Assembly: GCF_002872335.1 (NCBI RefSeq) | Contig: NZ_NJAG01000043.1 | Location: 1 to 38,651 of the forward strand | DNA: 38,651 nt | From: Siphonobacter sp. BAB-5405 | GTDB lineage: Bacteria; Bacteroidota; Bacteroidia; Cytophagales; Spirosomataceae | Direction of reading: 5' to 3' | Shown here: positions 14,894-18,681 of the stretch, in pieces | Layout of the letters: every line of letters starts with the position of its first letter | Numbering within the stretch: position 1 is the stretch's first letter | The notes under the pieces: model-generated | Told to the model about the DNA's origin: nothing | Databases searched by the model: none | Seen by the model: only the letters and a program-made list of their open reading frames with translations | Position numbers and translations under genes: made by a program

Positions 14894-15097
14894 AGAATGA
14901 AAAGATTGAAGGTTGATTGTCGGCAGCAAAGATGCTCGTATTGCTTAGACCTGTAGTAGGACAGGGTTCGTCAATTGTCGGGAATGATGGTTTAACCGCA
15001 GAAAGGTGGTGTTGAATTGGGGATGAAGTTTAGGTATTGCCCTGGCCGTTTTAGAAGTTCGTTATTCATCTAGACTAGGTTTGTTCCTGCAGCCATG
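14894..15097. other. Intergenic region, nothing recognised
   Basis: First part of a 750-bp gap without genes. No ORF, terminator or promoter motif that I can defend. The rest of the gap is described in the repeat, operator and promoter entries that follow. Confidence 0.5.
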
Positions 15098-15244
15098 GCT
15101 GTTCGGTAGCCCCTGAGCCTTCCAGGCTGGACCCCTACGTAACTGCCTAGCTTAGCTCCAGGCCACCGCATTGCTTCCACCATGGGATGACCCCATGGAA
15201 TGGCCCAGCATGGAATGCTCAATGGCGGGAGAGGCTTTCATCTT
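15098..15244 (+). repeat. Structured intergenic repeat, copy A
   Basis: It contains the core GGCCACCGCATTGC (15161-15174), preceded by GCTC at 15155. A long imperfect outer stem pairs 15109-15130 with 15205-15226 (18 of 22 positions match). A second hairpin, CCATGGG/CCCATGG, lies inside it. The left edge 'GTAGCCC.TGAGCC' and right edge 'GGCGGGAG..TTTCATCTT' recur in copy B at 18389-18503. No ORF crosses it. Confidence 0.75.
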
Positions 15245-15312
15245 AGGGCAGTAATCGATGGTTGTTAGTTGTTGGCTATTAACAGGTTAGTATAGTGGAC
15301 GGAATAAAACCG

Positions 15313-15403
15313 GACCCCGTCCTATCGCGATAAGCTGCCTATTTCCTCAGCAATGCGGTGGCCCTGAGCAAGAGGAAATCAGCAGCGTTCGCGATACGGA
15401 CTA
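15313..15403 (-). repeat. Structured intergenic repeat, copy C (inverted, core only shared)
   Basis: On the minus strand it carries the same core GGCCACCGCATTGC (plus-strand 15350-15363). The core sits in the loop of nested stems ATTTCCTC/GAGGAAAT (15341-15348 with 15372-15379), GCTGC/GCAGC (15334-15338 with 15382-15386), ATCGCGA/TCGCGAT (15324-15330 with 15389-15395) and CCGT/ACGG (15317-15320 with 15396-15399). The stem sequences are unrelated to those of the other copies. Confidence 0.72.
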
Positions 15404-15491
15404 AAAAAACCAGCCGTCTTCAAAGAACCAAGCTCGCTCTGTCCAAGGCGAAATAACCTAAAAAATCATCCATACACCCGTCAGGACAAGC

Positions 15492-15507
15492 CGTGCGATT
15501 TGACACA
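15492..15507. promoter_or_regulatory. Imperfect upstream operator half of a tandem activator site
   Basis: CGTGCGATTTGACACA matches 12 of 16 positions of the perfect palindrome centred 19 bp downstream. It is probably a weaker second site for the same regulator. Confidence 0.45.
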
Positions 15508-15509
15508 AC

Positions 15510-15527
15510 GTGTGCGATATCGCACAC
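15510..15527. promoter_or_regulatory. Perfect 18-bp palindrome, likely binding site of the sigma-54 activator
   Basis: GTGTGCGATATCGCACAC is fully symmetric. It is centred about 88 bp upstream of the start site expected from the sigma-54 promoter at 15580-15595, a normal distance for an enhancer site of an NtrC-family activator. The activator encoded at 23507-24873 is the obvious candidate (inference). Confidence 0.7.
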
Positions 15528-15579
15528 TTTTAGGAGTCACTGATTTTGGTAAGGTATTGAAATACAGTAATATACACTG

Positions 15580-15595
15580 TGGCACGCTTGTGGCA
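15580..15595 (+). promoter_or_regulatory. Sigma-54 (-24/-12) promoter of the efflux operon
   Basis: TGGCACGCTTGTGGCA matches the consensus TGGCAC-N5-TTGCA except for one base in the -12 box, with the invariant GG and GC correctly spaced. Transcription would begin near 15606, 36 nt before the adaptor ATG at 15642. A GTG at 15579 in frame with the adaptor lies within this promoter and cannot be the start. Confidence 0.75.
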
Positions 15596-15641
15596 TGTAG
15601 GAAAGGGTAGTATCACTTCATTTTTCAACCTTTTAGTACCA

Positions 15642-16889
15642 ATGGATCGGGAAGTACAGGCAGAATACCGAACGCGACAACGCAACCGACGATGGCTGGT
15701 AGCCTCCGGCCTACTGCTGGCTCTGATAGCTGGTATCTACGGCGTGCGGTCTACGCTACAAAGCTCTATCGAAGGCTCGCGGATACGGACCGCTTCGGTG
15801 AGCGTTGGCGACGTAGAAAATACGCTGACCGCTACGGGGGAAGTCATTCCGGCGTATGAGCAAATTATGACCAGTCCCATTCGGGCGAGTATCAAACGGG
15901 TACTGCTTACGACGGGTACACCCGTCGAGCCGGGTAAGGCCATTTTGGAACTAGACAAATCGCTAACGCAGATTGAATACGAGAAAATGCAGGATCAGTT
16001 GGAGCTAAAACGCAACGGCATCGATCAATTGCGAATGAAACTCAACAAGAACCTCTACGACGCCGAAATCAGTGACAAAATCAAGTCACTCAATATCAAC
16101 AAGCTTCGGGCGGACATTGAAGATTCTCGTCGCTTGCAGAAAGTAGGCGGCGGTACCCGTGAAGACATCACCCGGGCGGAAAACGCCCTGAAAATTGCCG
16201 AACTCGAAAAGCAGCAGCTCGAAAACGATTTGACGTACAATCGGCAGTCGATGGGAGCTAGCTTGCGGGAAACCGAACTGGGGGCCCAAATCGAAAGCAA
16301 AAATCTCAAAGAGCTGGACCACAAATTAAAACGGGCGGACATCGTGGCCGACCGCAAGGGGGTCCTCACCTGGGTCAATGAAAATATTGGTTCATCCGTC
16401 AACGAAGGCGAAATGCTGGCGAAAGTGGCCGATCTGGGCAGTTTCCGGGTGGATGGTTCTTGTTCCGACATCTATGCCGATCAGGTGAAAGTCGGCTTGC
16501 CCGTCATCTTAAAAATAAACGATACGACGCTGCGGGGACAGATTACTCAGGTAAAACCTGCCATCAGCAATGGGATCGTCAAGTTTGTTATCCAGCTCGA
16601 TAACGCCCAGAGTACGCTGCTACGGCCCAACATGAAAGTGGACGTATTTGTCGTCACCGATCGCAGTACGCGAACCCTGCGGGTAGCGAATGGCCCTGCA
16701 TTCACGGGTAAACGCAAGCAGTACGTCTACGTGCGGGAAGGCAACAAAGCATACCGGCGGGAAGTAGAAATCGGACGCTCCAACTTTGATTTCGTGGAAA
16801 TTAAAAGCGGATTGAAGGAAGGCGATCGGGTCATTCTGACGGACTTAAATCAGTATCAGCACCTGGAAGAAATCAGTATCAAGCCATGA
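15642..16889 (+). CDS. Efflux periplasmic adaptor (HlyD/MacA-type membrane fusion protein)
   Basis: Bridges an inner-membrane ABC exporter to an outer-membrane channel. The 415-residue product has one N-terminal membrane anchor (about 17-35, 'RWLVASGLLLALIAGIYGV'). The first half of the lipoyl/barrel-sandwich domain is 'ASVSVGDVENTLTATGEVIPAYEQIMTSPIRASIKRVLLTTGTPVEPGKAILELD'. A long charged coiled-coil hairpin (about 105-235) follows, then the second lipoyl half 'ADIVADRKGVLTWVNENIGSSVNEGEMLAKVADLG' and the beta-barrel and membrane-proximal domains. The stop overlaps the TolC start (ATGA), showing translational coupling. The ATG at 15642 is chosen because it lies just downstream of the sigma-54 promoter and puts the membrane anchor at the N-terminus. 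Confidence 0.93.
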   Translation: MDREVQAEYRTRQRNRRWLVASGLLLALIAGIYGVRSTLQSSIEGSRIRTASVSVGDVENTLTATGEVIPAYEQIMTSPIRASIKRVLLTTGTPVEPGKAILELDKSLTQIEYEKMQDQLELKRNGIDQLRMKLNKNLYDAEISDKIKSLNINKLRADIEDSRRLQKVGGGTREDITRAENALKIAELEKQQLENDLTYNRQSMGASLRETELGAQIESKNLKELDHKLKRADIVADRKGVLTWVNENIGSSVNEGEMLAKVADLGSFRVDGSCSDIYADQVKVGLPVILKINDTTLRGQITQVKPAISNGIVKFVIQLDNAQSTLLRPNMKVDVFVVTDRSTRTLRVANGPAFTGKRKQYVYVREGNKAYRREVEIGRSNFDFVEIKSGLKEGDRVILTDLNQYQHLEEISIKP

Positions 16890-18334
16890 AAATCTACGCG
16901 TTTCTCCTGCTGATGCTGTGGAATGTTGGTACACTCTGGGCTCAGGAGTACAAACTTACGCTGGTCGAGGCCGTCGAGCAGGCTCGCCATCAGTCGATCG
17001 CCGCTAAACAGGCCATTACCCAGAAAAAGACCACGTACTGGCAATACCGCTCGTTTCTGGCGGATTACCGGCCCCAACTGAGTCTGGATGGTACGCTGCC
17101 GGGTTTCACGCGTTCGTACATTGAAGTCGTGCAACCCGACGGTACCATTGCCTTTCAGCCCGTATCTAACAACAATTCCCTACTAAGCCTGTCGCTAAGC
17201 CAGAGCATTGCCCCGACGGGCGGTACGCTGTACGTGCAAAATCAGTTGCAACGCTTCGACGACTTTGCCCGCGACAACACGCGGTACAATGGCGTTCCTT
17301 TTGAAATGGGTATTCGTCAACCCCTGTTTCGTTACAATGCCATGCGATGGGACCGCCGCATCCAGCCGCTGAAGTATCAGGAAGGCATGCAGCAGTACCT
17401 TTCGTCAATGGAAGAAGTAGCTCTGCAGGCCTCAGGATATTATTTCGATCTGCTGGTAGCTCAGGTGAACTTACAGATTGCCGAGAAAAACCGACAGAAT
17501 AACGACACGCTCTATAAAATTGCCCAGCATAAACTGGAGTTGGGACGTATCTCGCAGAATGACCTGTTGCAATTACAGATGGGAGTACTGACGGCAGAGA
17601 AAGACCTGGCCTCGGCCCAGCAATCGGCTACGGTAGCTTCGCTGCAACTGAATCGGTACATCGGTTTTCGGAATGATCGCATGCCCGAACTGGAAATTCC
17701 AACACAACTGCGGGAGTTTGTCGTGGAGCCGCAAAAGGCCATTGATGAAGCCTTCGCAAACCGGGCCGATGCCGTAGCCTTTAGTCGCCGCCTGCTGGAA
17801 GCCGAACGCGATGTACAGCAGGCCGTGAAGGAGAATGGATTGAACGCCTCGCTGAACGCCACATTCGGGCTATCGAACCGGGGTAGTCAGCCGATGGATG
17901 TCTACCGTAAACCGCAGGATCGGGAGTTTGTGGAGTTGCAGTTTACGCTGCCCATTCTGACCTGGGGCCGGAATAAGGCTCGAACGGAGGTGGCTAAAGC
18001 GAACCGGGAGTTTGCCCAGCAGTCGGTAGAGCAGGATAAGCTGACGTTCGAACAGCAGATTTTCACGCAGGTTACGCTCTTGCAGATGCTCCAAAAACAG
18101 GTACGGCTTACGCGGCTGGCCGACGAGATTGCGGCCAACCGCTACCAGATTGCTCAGGAACGGTTTATCTTAAGCAATCTGAGCGTAACGGATCTGGCGA
18201 TTGCTACGCAGGAGAAGGACCGGGCCAAACGCGATTACATTCTGGCTCTGCGGGATTACTGGCAGTCGTATTACAGCCTGCGGTTGCTGACGCTGTATGA
18301 TTTTGAGCGGAGGGAGAAGATTTGGTATGAATAA
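16886..18334 (+). CDS. TolC family outer-membrane efflux channel
   Basis: Outer-membrane exit duct for the ABC efflux system. It has a signal peptide (MKIYAFLLLMLWNVGTLWAQ), followed by 'YKLTLVEAVEQARHQSIAAKQA', the opening typical of TolC-like repeats. Two long helical repeats follow ('SSMEEVALQASGYYFDLLVAQVNLQIAEKNRQNNDTLYKIAQHKLELGRISQNDLLQLQMGVLTAEKDL' and the related segment in the second half, 'VTLLQMLQKQVRLTRLADEIAANRYQIAQERFILSNLSVTDLAIATQEKDRAKRDYILALRDYWQSYYSLR'). The 482 residues are within the family range. It starts inside the adaptor stop codon. A 347-bp gap holding a copy of the structured repeat separates it from the ATPase gene. Confidence 0.94.
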   Translation: MKIYAFLLLMLWNVGTLWAQEYKLTLVEAVEQARHQSIAAKQAITQKKTTYWQYRSFLADYRPQLSLDGTLPGFTRSYIEVVQPDGTIAFQPVSNNNSLLSLSLSQSIAPTGGTLYVQNQLQRFDDFARDNTRYNGVPFEMGIRQPLFRYNAMRWDRRIQPLKYQEGMQQYLSSMEEVALQASGYYFDLLVAQVNLQIAEKNRQNNDTLYKIAQHKLELGRISQNDLLQLQMGVLTAEKDLASAQQSATVASLQLNRYIGFRNDRMPELEIPTQLREFVVEPQKAIDEAFANRADAVAFSRRLLEAERDVQQAVKENGLNASLNATFGLSNRGSQPMDVYRKPQDREFVELQFTLPILTWGRNKARTEVAKANREFAQQSVEQDKLTFEQQIFTQVTLLQMLQKQVRLTRLADEIAANRYQIAQERFILSNLSVTDLAIATQEKDRAKRDYILALRDYWQSYYSLRLLTLYDFERREKIWYE

Positions 18335-18388
18335 TGTAGAGCGGATTATTGATCTGGTTATACTAAGACGGCACTCGCACTCATTACT

Positions 18389-18503
18389 GGCTGCTAGTAG
18401 CCCATGAGCCACTCCATGCCTGACGACAGTCTGCTCTGGGCCACCGCATTGCGACTGTCGTAGGGCATTCCGCGGCTCACGGGCGGGAGGTATTTTCATC
18501 TTT
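18389..18503 (+). repeat. Structured intergenic repeat, copy B
   Basis: The core GGCCACCGCATTGC (18439-18452), preceded by GCTC at 18433, lies in the loop of a perfect 9-bp stem ACGACAGTC/GACTGTCGT (18423-18431 with 18453-18461). Outside this come GGCAT/ATGCC and TGAGCC/GGCTCA pairings. It opens with GTAG at 18397 and ends in 'GGGCGGGAGG..TTTCATCTTT', like copy A. It lies between the TolC and ATPase genes of the efflux locus. The remaining 180 bp up to the ATPase gene show no promoter that I can identify. Confidence 0.78.
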
Positions 18504-18681
18504 AGCATTTAATGACTGTTCTTCGTCAAGGCTTAGTGGCATTAATTGTACTAAAAGTATAAATGAATGAAATACAGGTGTAGGCTTGGAAAGTAAGTGT
18601 ATAAAGGCTGGTCCTGCGACTAAAAAATGAATTCAAAACATCAGTATTAATAAAACATCAGTAGTTAACCTGACAAACCTT

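Follow-up and report, generated by a model that had tools for sequence, protein, structure and literature searches.

What keeps the two arms of a hairpin paired when the stem differs from one copy to the next and only the loop stays the same? The question is raised by a stretch of 38,651 nucleotides (nt) from Siphonobacter sp. BAB-5405 (contig NZ_NJAG01000043.1; hereafter the window), where a 14-nt core, GGCCACCGCATTGC, recurs in the gaps around the genes for an adaptor and TolC. The answer that we favor, with some reservation, is that the core marks an old, non-autonomous family of intergenic DNA hairpins, similar to miniature inverted-repeat transposable elements (MITEs) or to repetitive extragenic palindromic (REP) doublets forming hairpins (REPINs), in which copies at fixed sites swap interiors. 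The family would initially have spread by transposition, as MITEs or REPINs do, through an enzyme reading hairpin and loop; the swapping of interiors would have come later, by ectopic gene conversion or by recombination anchored in the heads, the core loop and the stem bases. Stems could change with pairing kept because both arms would be copied together, and a donor could enter either way round because the two heads would act as inverted repeats. Pairing would be kept at the level of DNA, as a hairpin or cruciform or through homogenization of the arms by template switching, and not for an RNA product.

A family of inverted hairpin pairs

The core is found exactly at 15161-15174 and 18439-18452 on the forward strand and, inverted, at 15350-15363, each time with GCTC two bases upstream, as the original prediction had it; with up to three mismatches allowed, the window holds seven matches against 3.04 expected, only these three being exact. 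The prediction also placed the core only in the gaps around the adaptor and TolC genes, which is true of the window but not of the genome. In the host genome (G000; 6.49 Mb in 246 contigs) there are 26 exact cores, and one match to the reversed pattern used as a control. A BLAST search of the genome with one copy returned 58 pieces, which together with the core matches make 41 loci, namely 39 that were fetched and the two window sites; at least four more copies (C188:60195, C193:17285, C43:322334 and C190:54732) lie outside all counts.

Most loci are built as a pair. An L core and an inverted R core, at up to three mismatches, are present in 29 of the 41 loci, their starts 156-266 bp apart, and a single recognizable core in the other 12 (L only in seven, R only in five). 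Nine spurious core-like matches in the host were struck out by hand before this count and those of arm linkage, arm crossing and best matches. The cores that had been read as three separate copies are real, but the first (copy A) and the inverted one are the two halves of a single element. Units measure about 100-130 nt with a shared loop of 14-20 nt, and whole elements about 300-400 bp. L and R units differ in stem and tail; their loop and the GCTC-like motif ahead of it are the same, and their outer heads are alike. Model R2, which had only R units as input and was built without the window's second element, also finds L units (54.1 bits for that element, at 18393-18491). Among copies gathered through the core, loop positions are 87% identical on average (92-100% in the CCACCGC.TT part) and stem positions 74%.

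The window holds two elements of this family. Element 1 (15058..15457, forward strand, delimited by alignment with other loci) is an inverted pair of L unit, spacer and R unit upstream of the adaptor gene. It opens with the L head (15058..15105; TTCGTTATTCATCTAGAC..GGTTTGTTCC..GGCTGTTCG), an outer block conserved in the multi-copy alignment, followed on the same strand by the L unit (15106..15244), that is copy A, with an outer stem, a TTCCAGGCTGGA insert, a 5' inner arm of the GTAACTGCC type and the core loop at 15161..15174. Where the matching 3' inner arm would be expected, copy A has CCATGG/GGAATGG blocks, so that the inner stem is broken. Beyond a spacer with approximate edges (15245..15291) lies the R unit on the reverse strand (15312..15408, from model R2 and folding), with the outer stem GTCC.TATCGCGA/TCGCGATA.GGAC, the inner stem ATTTCCTC/GAGGAAAT and the inverted core loop at 15350..15363; it scores 111.8 bits with model R2, being itself one of that model's building sequences. 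The R head (15398..15457, reverse strand; GGACTAAAAAAACCAGCCGTCTTCAAAGAACC...) resembles an inverted L head in the multi-copy alignment, as judged by eye. Element 2 (18370..18505, forward strand, outer edges approximate) is an L unit on its own, located between the TolC gene and the ABC-transporter gene, with its core loop at 18439..18452, an outer stem GCCC.TGAGCC/GGCTCA.GGGC and the inner stem ACGACAGTC/GACTGTCGT; it scores 109.5 bits with model R1, of which it is a building sequence. The perfect stems at 18439 and 15350 are thus unrelated, as had been claimed. Folded as DNA, these two units are far more stable than their shuffles (z = -4.35 and -4.90, respectively, with 0 of 200 shuffles as good in either case). 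Copy A (15106-15234) looks like a broken hairpin, because its fold reaches a z of only -1.87, with 9 of 200 shuffles as good.

Pairing of the stems

Does the change in the stems preserve pairing? In an alignment of 15 compact copies out of 36 L units, 14 of 25 pairs show double-sided change, in 39 cells against 9.7 in shuffled alignments; in 12 of 34 aligned R units, it is 6 of 28 pairs and 15 cells against 4.4. Run over 61 sources, the L model gave 63 matches, all of which went into a joint set of 61 distinct rows with L and R units from two species. Double-changed cells number 289 in this set, against 80.3 in shuffles and 23-58 when partners are slid, and 93.3% of its cells are paired against 71.6% shuffled and 30-54% slid; having been fitted to the structure, this alignment is biased in its favor. 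The arms also travel together. Among 34 R units, the outer modules are matched in 17 + 10 and mixed in 4 + 3 cases (Fisher p 0.0014), the inner ones matched in 15 + 15 and mixed in four (p 2e-6), where the p values are nominal as the copies are related and not independent; the mixed modules indicate that arms can also differ singly. When arms are crossed between 70 units, mean pairing falls from 9.9 for own arms to 6.5. The original prediction had named in advance a genome search for further copies and a test of covariation as the trials that could undo it; it withstood both, and its picture of a conserved loop on covarying stems is supported by the L, R and joint alignments, which also speak for constraint or homogenization acting on the base pairing.

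Stem covariation is commonly read as strong evidence for selection on an RNA, and the strong covariation together with the conserved loop would indeed suit a structured non-coding RNA or a cis-acting mRNA element in which hairpin and loop are read as RNA, as would the position of element 2 between two transporter genes of one direction. We nevertheless consider this explanation improbable, and the small structured RNA of the original prediction has lost ground. Mismatched cells in the L-model alignment (1440 cells) comprise 25 G-U, 49 A-C and 48 others. The R-model alignment does have a raw excess of G-U over A-C (87 against 54), but it is due to one fixed column that is U-G in 56 of 60 rows and without which the counts are 31 and 53; all of these counts ignore the relatedness of the copies. 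Stems maintained in DNA, or stems whose arms are copied together, would be expected to show just such indifference between G-U and A-C, which points to DNA more than to RNA. Further, the L and R units of one element lie on opposite strands, and the genes flanking the 41 loci, taken from open reading frames, give no clear orientation preference (same direction in 25, 14 + 11; convergent in 10; divergent in six). None of the 4227 families of Rfam 15 matched at its gathering score, the one sub-threshold match, to a trypanosomatid small nucleolar RNA (23.3 against a gathering score of 35 bits), being taken as chance. Around element 1 (14950-15700) there are no terminator-like sites of stem plus T-run, and the one promoter-like site nearby is matched in number by shuffles. 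Finally, at both window sites the hairpins are absent from the sister species although the genes are kept.

In core orientation, the separate L and R alignments contain more A-C than G-U mismatches (16 against 4 in L; 6 against 0 in R, the fixed U-G column aside), a skew that may reflect strand-biased mutation.

Palindromes are prone to template switching, and during replication one arm could template the other, so that stems would change in place with no donor copy. This process has been described as a source of multi-base compensatory change with few intermediates (PMC8794818), which is the kind of change seen here. However, the same few stem types (CATCC/GGATG, CCTCT/GAGG and GTAACTG/CAGGTTAC) recur at many loci, which demands copying between loci. 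As a full account template switching therefore seems doubtful, if possible, to us, while it may have made the first version of each stem.

The same sites in the sister species

Among 99 genomes, the host's own included, the exact core is repeated in the host genome (26) and in that of a sister species (G001, 10), with one or two matches in five of the 97 others; one of the ten cores in the sister species (L138) appears by eye to lie in coding sequence. Comparison of the flanks of the 41 host loci with 32 stretches of the sister genome, some of them overlapping, matched 23 sites, 22 by both flanks and one (L115) by the left flank only. Matched flanks are 90-99% identical, except for two at 88.7 and 83.4%. 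Between these well-kept flanks the units themselves have mostly changed: of 30 unit positions filled in both species, four are unchanged, defined as at least 90% identity with at most four gap columns around the core, and 26 are changed, while 13 are filled in one species only. These counts are approximate, as L and R were assigned by position, which mixes in reversed elements, and one R entry (L097) is spurious.

In three site pairs a whole stem is swapped, and each time both arms are hit. At L108/L167 the inner stem reads GTAACTGTC../..GACAGGTTAC in one species and ACGACAGCC/GGCTGTCGT in the other, and most of the outer stem and tail is retained; the R unit at L112/L175 has a different outer stem on the same inner stem; and at L091/L157 the R hairpin differs while L is kept. 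The changed stretches vary from site to site. Both window sites lack the hairpins in the sister species, where the genes and the outer blocks are kept, as is a short inner block at the site of element 1. In a further genome (G003) the gap between the TolC and ABC-transporter genes is about a dozen bases, but that genome is too diverged to give an insertion junction.

The orientation of the element relative to its flanks is reversed between the species in 5 of 19 scorable elements, a further four being not scorable. At L104/L183, for instance, both the left part, head included, and the right flank keep the same order, and the interior between them runs in reverse at 72% identity; the reversed interiors of three other elements are 63-72% identical and that of L113/L199 88%. 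Since the interior is more diverged than the flanks in four of the five, replacement by an oppositely oriented donor fits these better than simple inversion, whereas L113 fits either. A related observation comes from the R unit near 2100 at L100, an R-type hairpin that carries an L-type head (TTCGTTATTCACCTAGAC), as is expected if its interior was once placed in reverse. At another site, the elements in L101 and L168 are nearly identical but for the number of 14-nt blocks around CCCCATGGAATGGC, of which one species has two and the other three; many copies of the family contain blocks of this kind.

Changed and reversed hairpins at fixed sites, together with a conserved loop over variable stems, would also be produced by a site-specific recombinase that used the loop to recognize the folded hairpin and swapped hairpin cassettes among sites. 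The attC sites of integrons likewise are folded single strands of variable sequence and conserved shape. They keep conserved boxes at the ends of the stem and not the loop, and we have seen no cassette genes here, integrases not having been searched for. As the changed stretches differ between sites, and no enzyme has been identified, Y1_Tnp being the only one searched for, we give this explanation a slender chance. Rather unlikely, too, is a bolder reading, a DNA shuffling system in which an enzyme would read the conserved loop and exchange or flip hairpin cassettes between fixed sites, the stem being free to vary as long as it pairs, with a version of drifted loop in at least three genera of the family. 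Under the exchange that we favor, the loop may be kept by a protein or serve as a mere recombination anchor.

Relatives, mobility and the case for exchange

How far does the family reach? With model R2 at an E-value of 0.01, there were no matches in G002-G005, where one decayed copy is visible in G002, and among 37 genomes besides the host and the sister species just one each in G018 and G020 (E 9e-5 and 0.004). These led into a second set, of 2, 12 and 16 BLAST pieces in G018, G020 and G046, respectively. G020 and G046 have a similar inverted two-unit layout, and G018 has units; the loop is TGCGCAARGCCNNCGCACA, alignable by eye with TGCTCAAGGCCACCGCA, and the ends read GGGTAATGC..TTTCGCCCTC. 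Here, too, several stems are mutually unrelated (TTTTACAGCC/GGCTGTAAAA, ATCTTTTGGC/GCCAAAAGAT and TTTTATGGGCC/GGCCCATAAAA), and in 20 rows own arms pair better on average than crossed ones (9.1 against 5.9), including three rows that are probably spurious, as chance or reverse readings. Judged from the sequence of the loop, the stem base (CGCCGCT/AAGGCGGCTT) and the head, the second set is probably homologous to the family of the window. Paired ends are 327-359 bp apart in 10 of 11 loci examined in G020 and G046. Two loci in G020 (L177 and L253) display this second, related-looking family of inverted hairpin pairs, in another genus of the taxonomic family, with ends GGGTAATGC..GCCCTC. One element used as a query had no match in plasmid and phage collections. 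The idea of one motif across all bacteria was dropped: a pattern with 18 specified bases gave 37 single stretches over many phyla and four in viral contigs, which we treat as chance, in scans that may leave out the window's own or near genomes.

The inverted pairing of hairpins, their intergenic place and their tens of copies recall REPs, bacterial interspersed mosaic elements and REPINs, whose inverted pairs are often of non-identical units (PMC3733652). REPs proper are 20-40 bp long with stems of 5-13 bp, and fall into GTAG- and CGTC-tagged superfamilies, of which CGTC families are reported without a flanking transposase (PMC3733652). Could the elements then be mobilized by a REP-associated tyrosine transposase (RAYT; TnpA-REP, a Y1 transposase) acting on single-stranded hairpins? 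Y1_Tnp matches exist in 10 of 13 genomes searched, with three in the host and others in G018, G020 and G046. The sister species, G005 and G006 have none, and yet the sister species has 40 model matches to the element. In the host, flanks of about 1.5 kb on each side of the three Y1_Tnp genes contain, by eye, other short palindromes and no copy of the element, so that at none of the three loci is the gene flanked by the repeat. The family does have inverted pairs (29 of 41 loci), but no short palindrome with an unpaired terminal GTAG or CGTC tag. The likeness to the GTAG start of REP elements looks superficial: in L units this tetranucleotide, or a variant of it, sits directly next to the outer stem, and there is nothing comparable in R units. 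Moreover, units of about 100-130 nt with loops of 15-20 nt are far above REP size, their long loop is the conserved part, and their stems differ as blocks between orthologous sites. On the 3.7-Mb contig of the sister species, 21 elements listed by hand are oriented 16 to 5 overall (p 0.027), but this bias is unrelated to GC skew, being 10 to 2 on one side of the flip and 6 to 3 on the other. We therefore rejected RAYT-driven REPs as the present driver, and find the link to RAYTs made in the original prediction quite unlikely.

The three Y1_Tnp/RAYT-like genes of the host (L139, L140 and L141, at C187:7280, C9:42401 and C1:129249) each lie near short palindromes, for example CCCCGGGTTGCACCCGGGGC and GTAGGCACAGCCTAC, and are perhaps three separate REP systems.

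The family also resembles MITEs, as the elements are short, non-coding, multi-copy and dispersed, with inverted terminal blocks, although the heads have diverged in the window's genus. From the dispersal and the terminal inverted heads we infer a mobile origin. The unseen parent could be a DDE or HUH transposon, and repeated insertion at permissive sites combined with hairpin deletion would then mimic stem swaps in the absence of any exchange. The inverted heads at both ends, the narrow spacing of ends in G020 and G046 and the loss of hairpins that the sister species shows at the window sites are what this alternative expects; it does not easily explain L112/L175 and L108/L167, where one stem of a hairpin has changed while the other is kept or largely so. 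We hold it to be a minor possibility. Two negatives weigh on both accounts: a search for an autonomous relative through the ends in G020 and G046, with one pattern and up to two mismatches, found no pair at transposon length, and in the flanks of ten elements of these genomes there is no target-site duplication by eye and no clean empty site.

These last two negatives, along with the raw G-U excess of the R units, belong to a series of results that weigh against our reading as an exchange of interiors. No transposase has been linked to the element, Y1_Tnp again being the only enzyme searched for. The conservation of the core is partly a matter of ascertainment, since the core itself, or a BLAST search with a single copy, was the means of collecting copies. 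The covariation is less rich than the cell counts suggest: further standard pair types number 22 in the L set against 20.3 shuffled (115 of 500 shuffles as high) and 6 in the R set against 7.4 (500 of 500), and the joint set has no more than 21 pairs with double change where shuffles give 18.1 (12 of 500). Because a few stem types recur many times, pair types do not rise above shuffles and cells are not independent events. Only 12 of 36 L and 8 of 34 R units (20 of 70), and 5 of 20 rows from the other genera, find their best partner in their own 3' arm, since copies have stems in common. In a pool of 102 units, the own counterpart in the host is the best match for 9 of 29 units of the sister species and 20 are nearer to another locus, but with one alignment per pair, indels of 14-30 nt lower the scores of true counterparts, so that the 20 of 29 may overstate exchange. 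Eighteen of the 41 loci are without a match in the fetched stretches of the sister genome and thus outside the site comparison, and insertions recurring at the same hot spots could look like exchange.

Several features set the family apart from the systems it resembles. Unlike MITEs, it has shown us no parent transposon or target duplication, and its internal hairpins turn over at fixed sites; unlike REPs, it has no Y1_Tnp gene seen flanked by its repeat. Rolling-circle origins of single-stranded DNA replicons have a conserved loop on a stem of variable sequence, but the present family is not part of a replicon, Rep genes not having been searched for. Organelle palindromes of Volvox carteri come near in form, with a frequent common loop, variable stems, palindromes nested in palindromes and an intergenic place; as far as the accessible part of the report goes, they differ in having loops of 3-5 nt, elements of about 50 nt, a location in organelle DNA and no described inverted L/R layout (PMC2670323). 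A literature search limited to one library found no description of the hairpin family of the window. The family is a large natural case of block-wise stem covariation at orthologous sites with no wobble preference, which fits exchange between DNA copies. It could thus serve as a test system for stem change without broken intermediates and as a warning for covariation-based RNA discovery, and its conserved loop may lead to a new hairpin-recognizing DNA enzyme in these bacteria.

The genes around the two elements match an HlyD-type adaptor, an outer membrane efflux protein, an ABC ATPase and a MacB/FtsX permease. Upstream of the adaptor gene, positions 15510-15527 form a perfect 18-bp palindrome, GTGTGCGATATCGCACAC, with GTGCGATT shortly before it; it is largely kept in the sister species and could be a candidate regulator site for the efflux genes.

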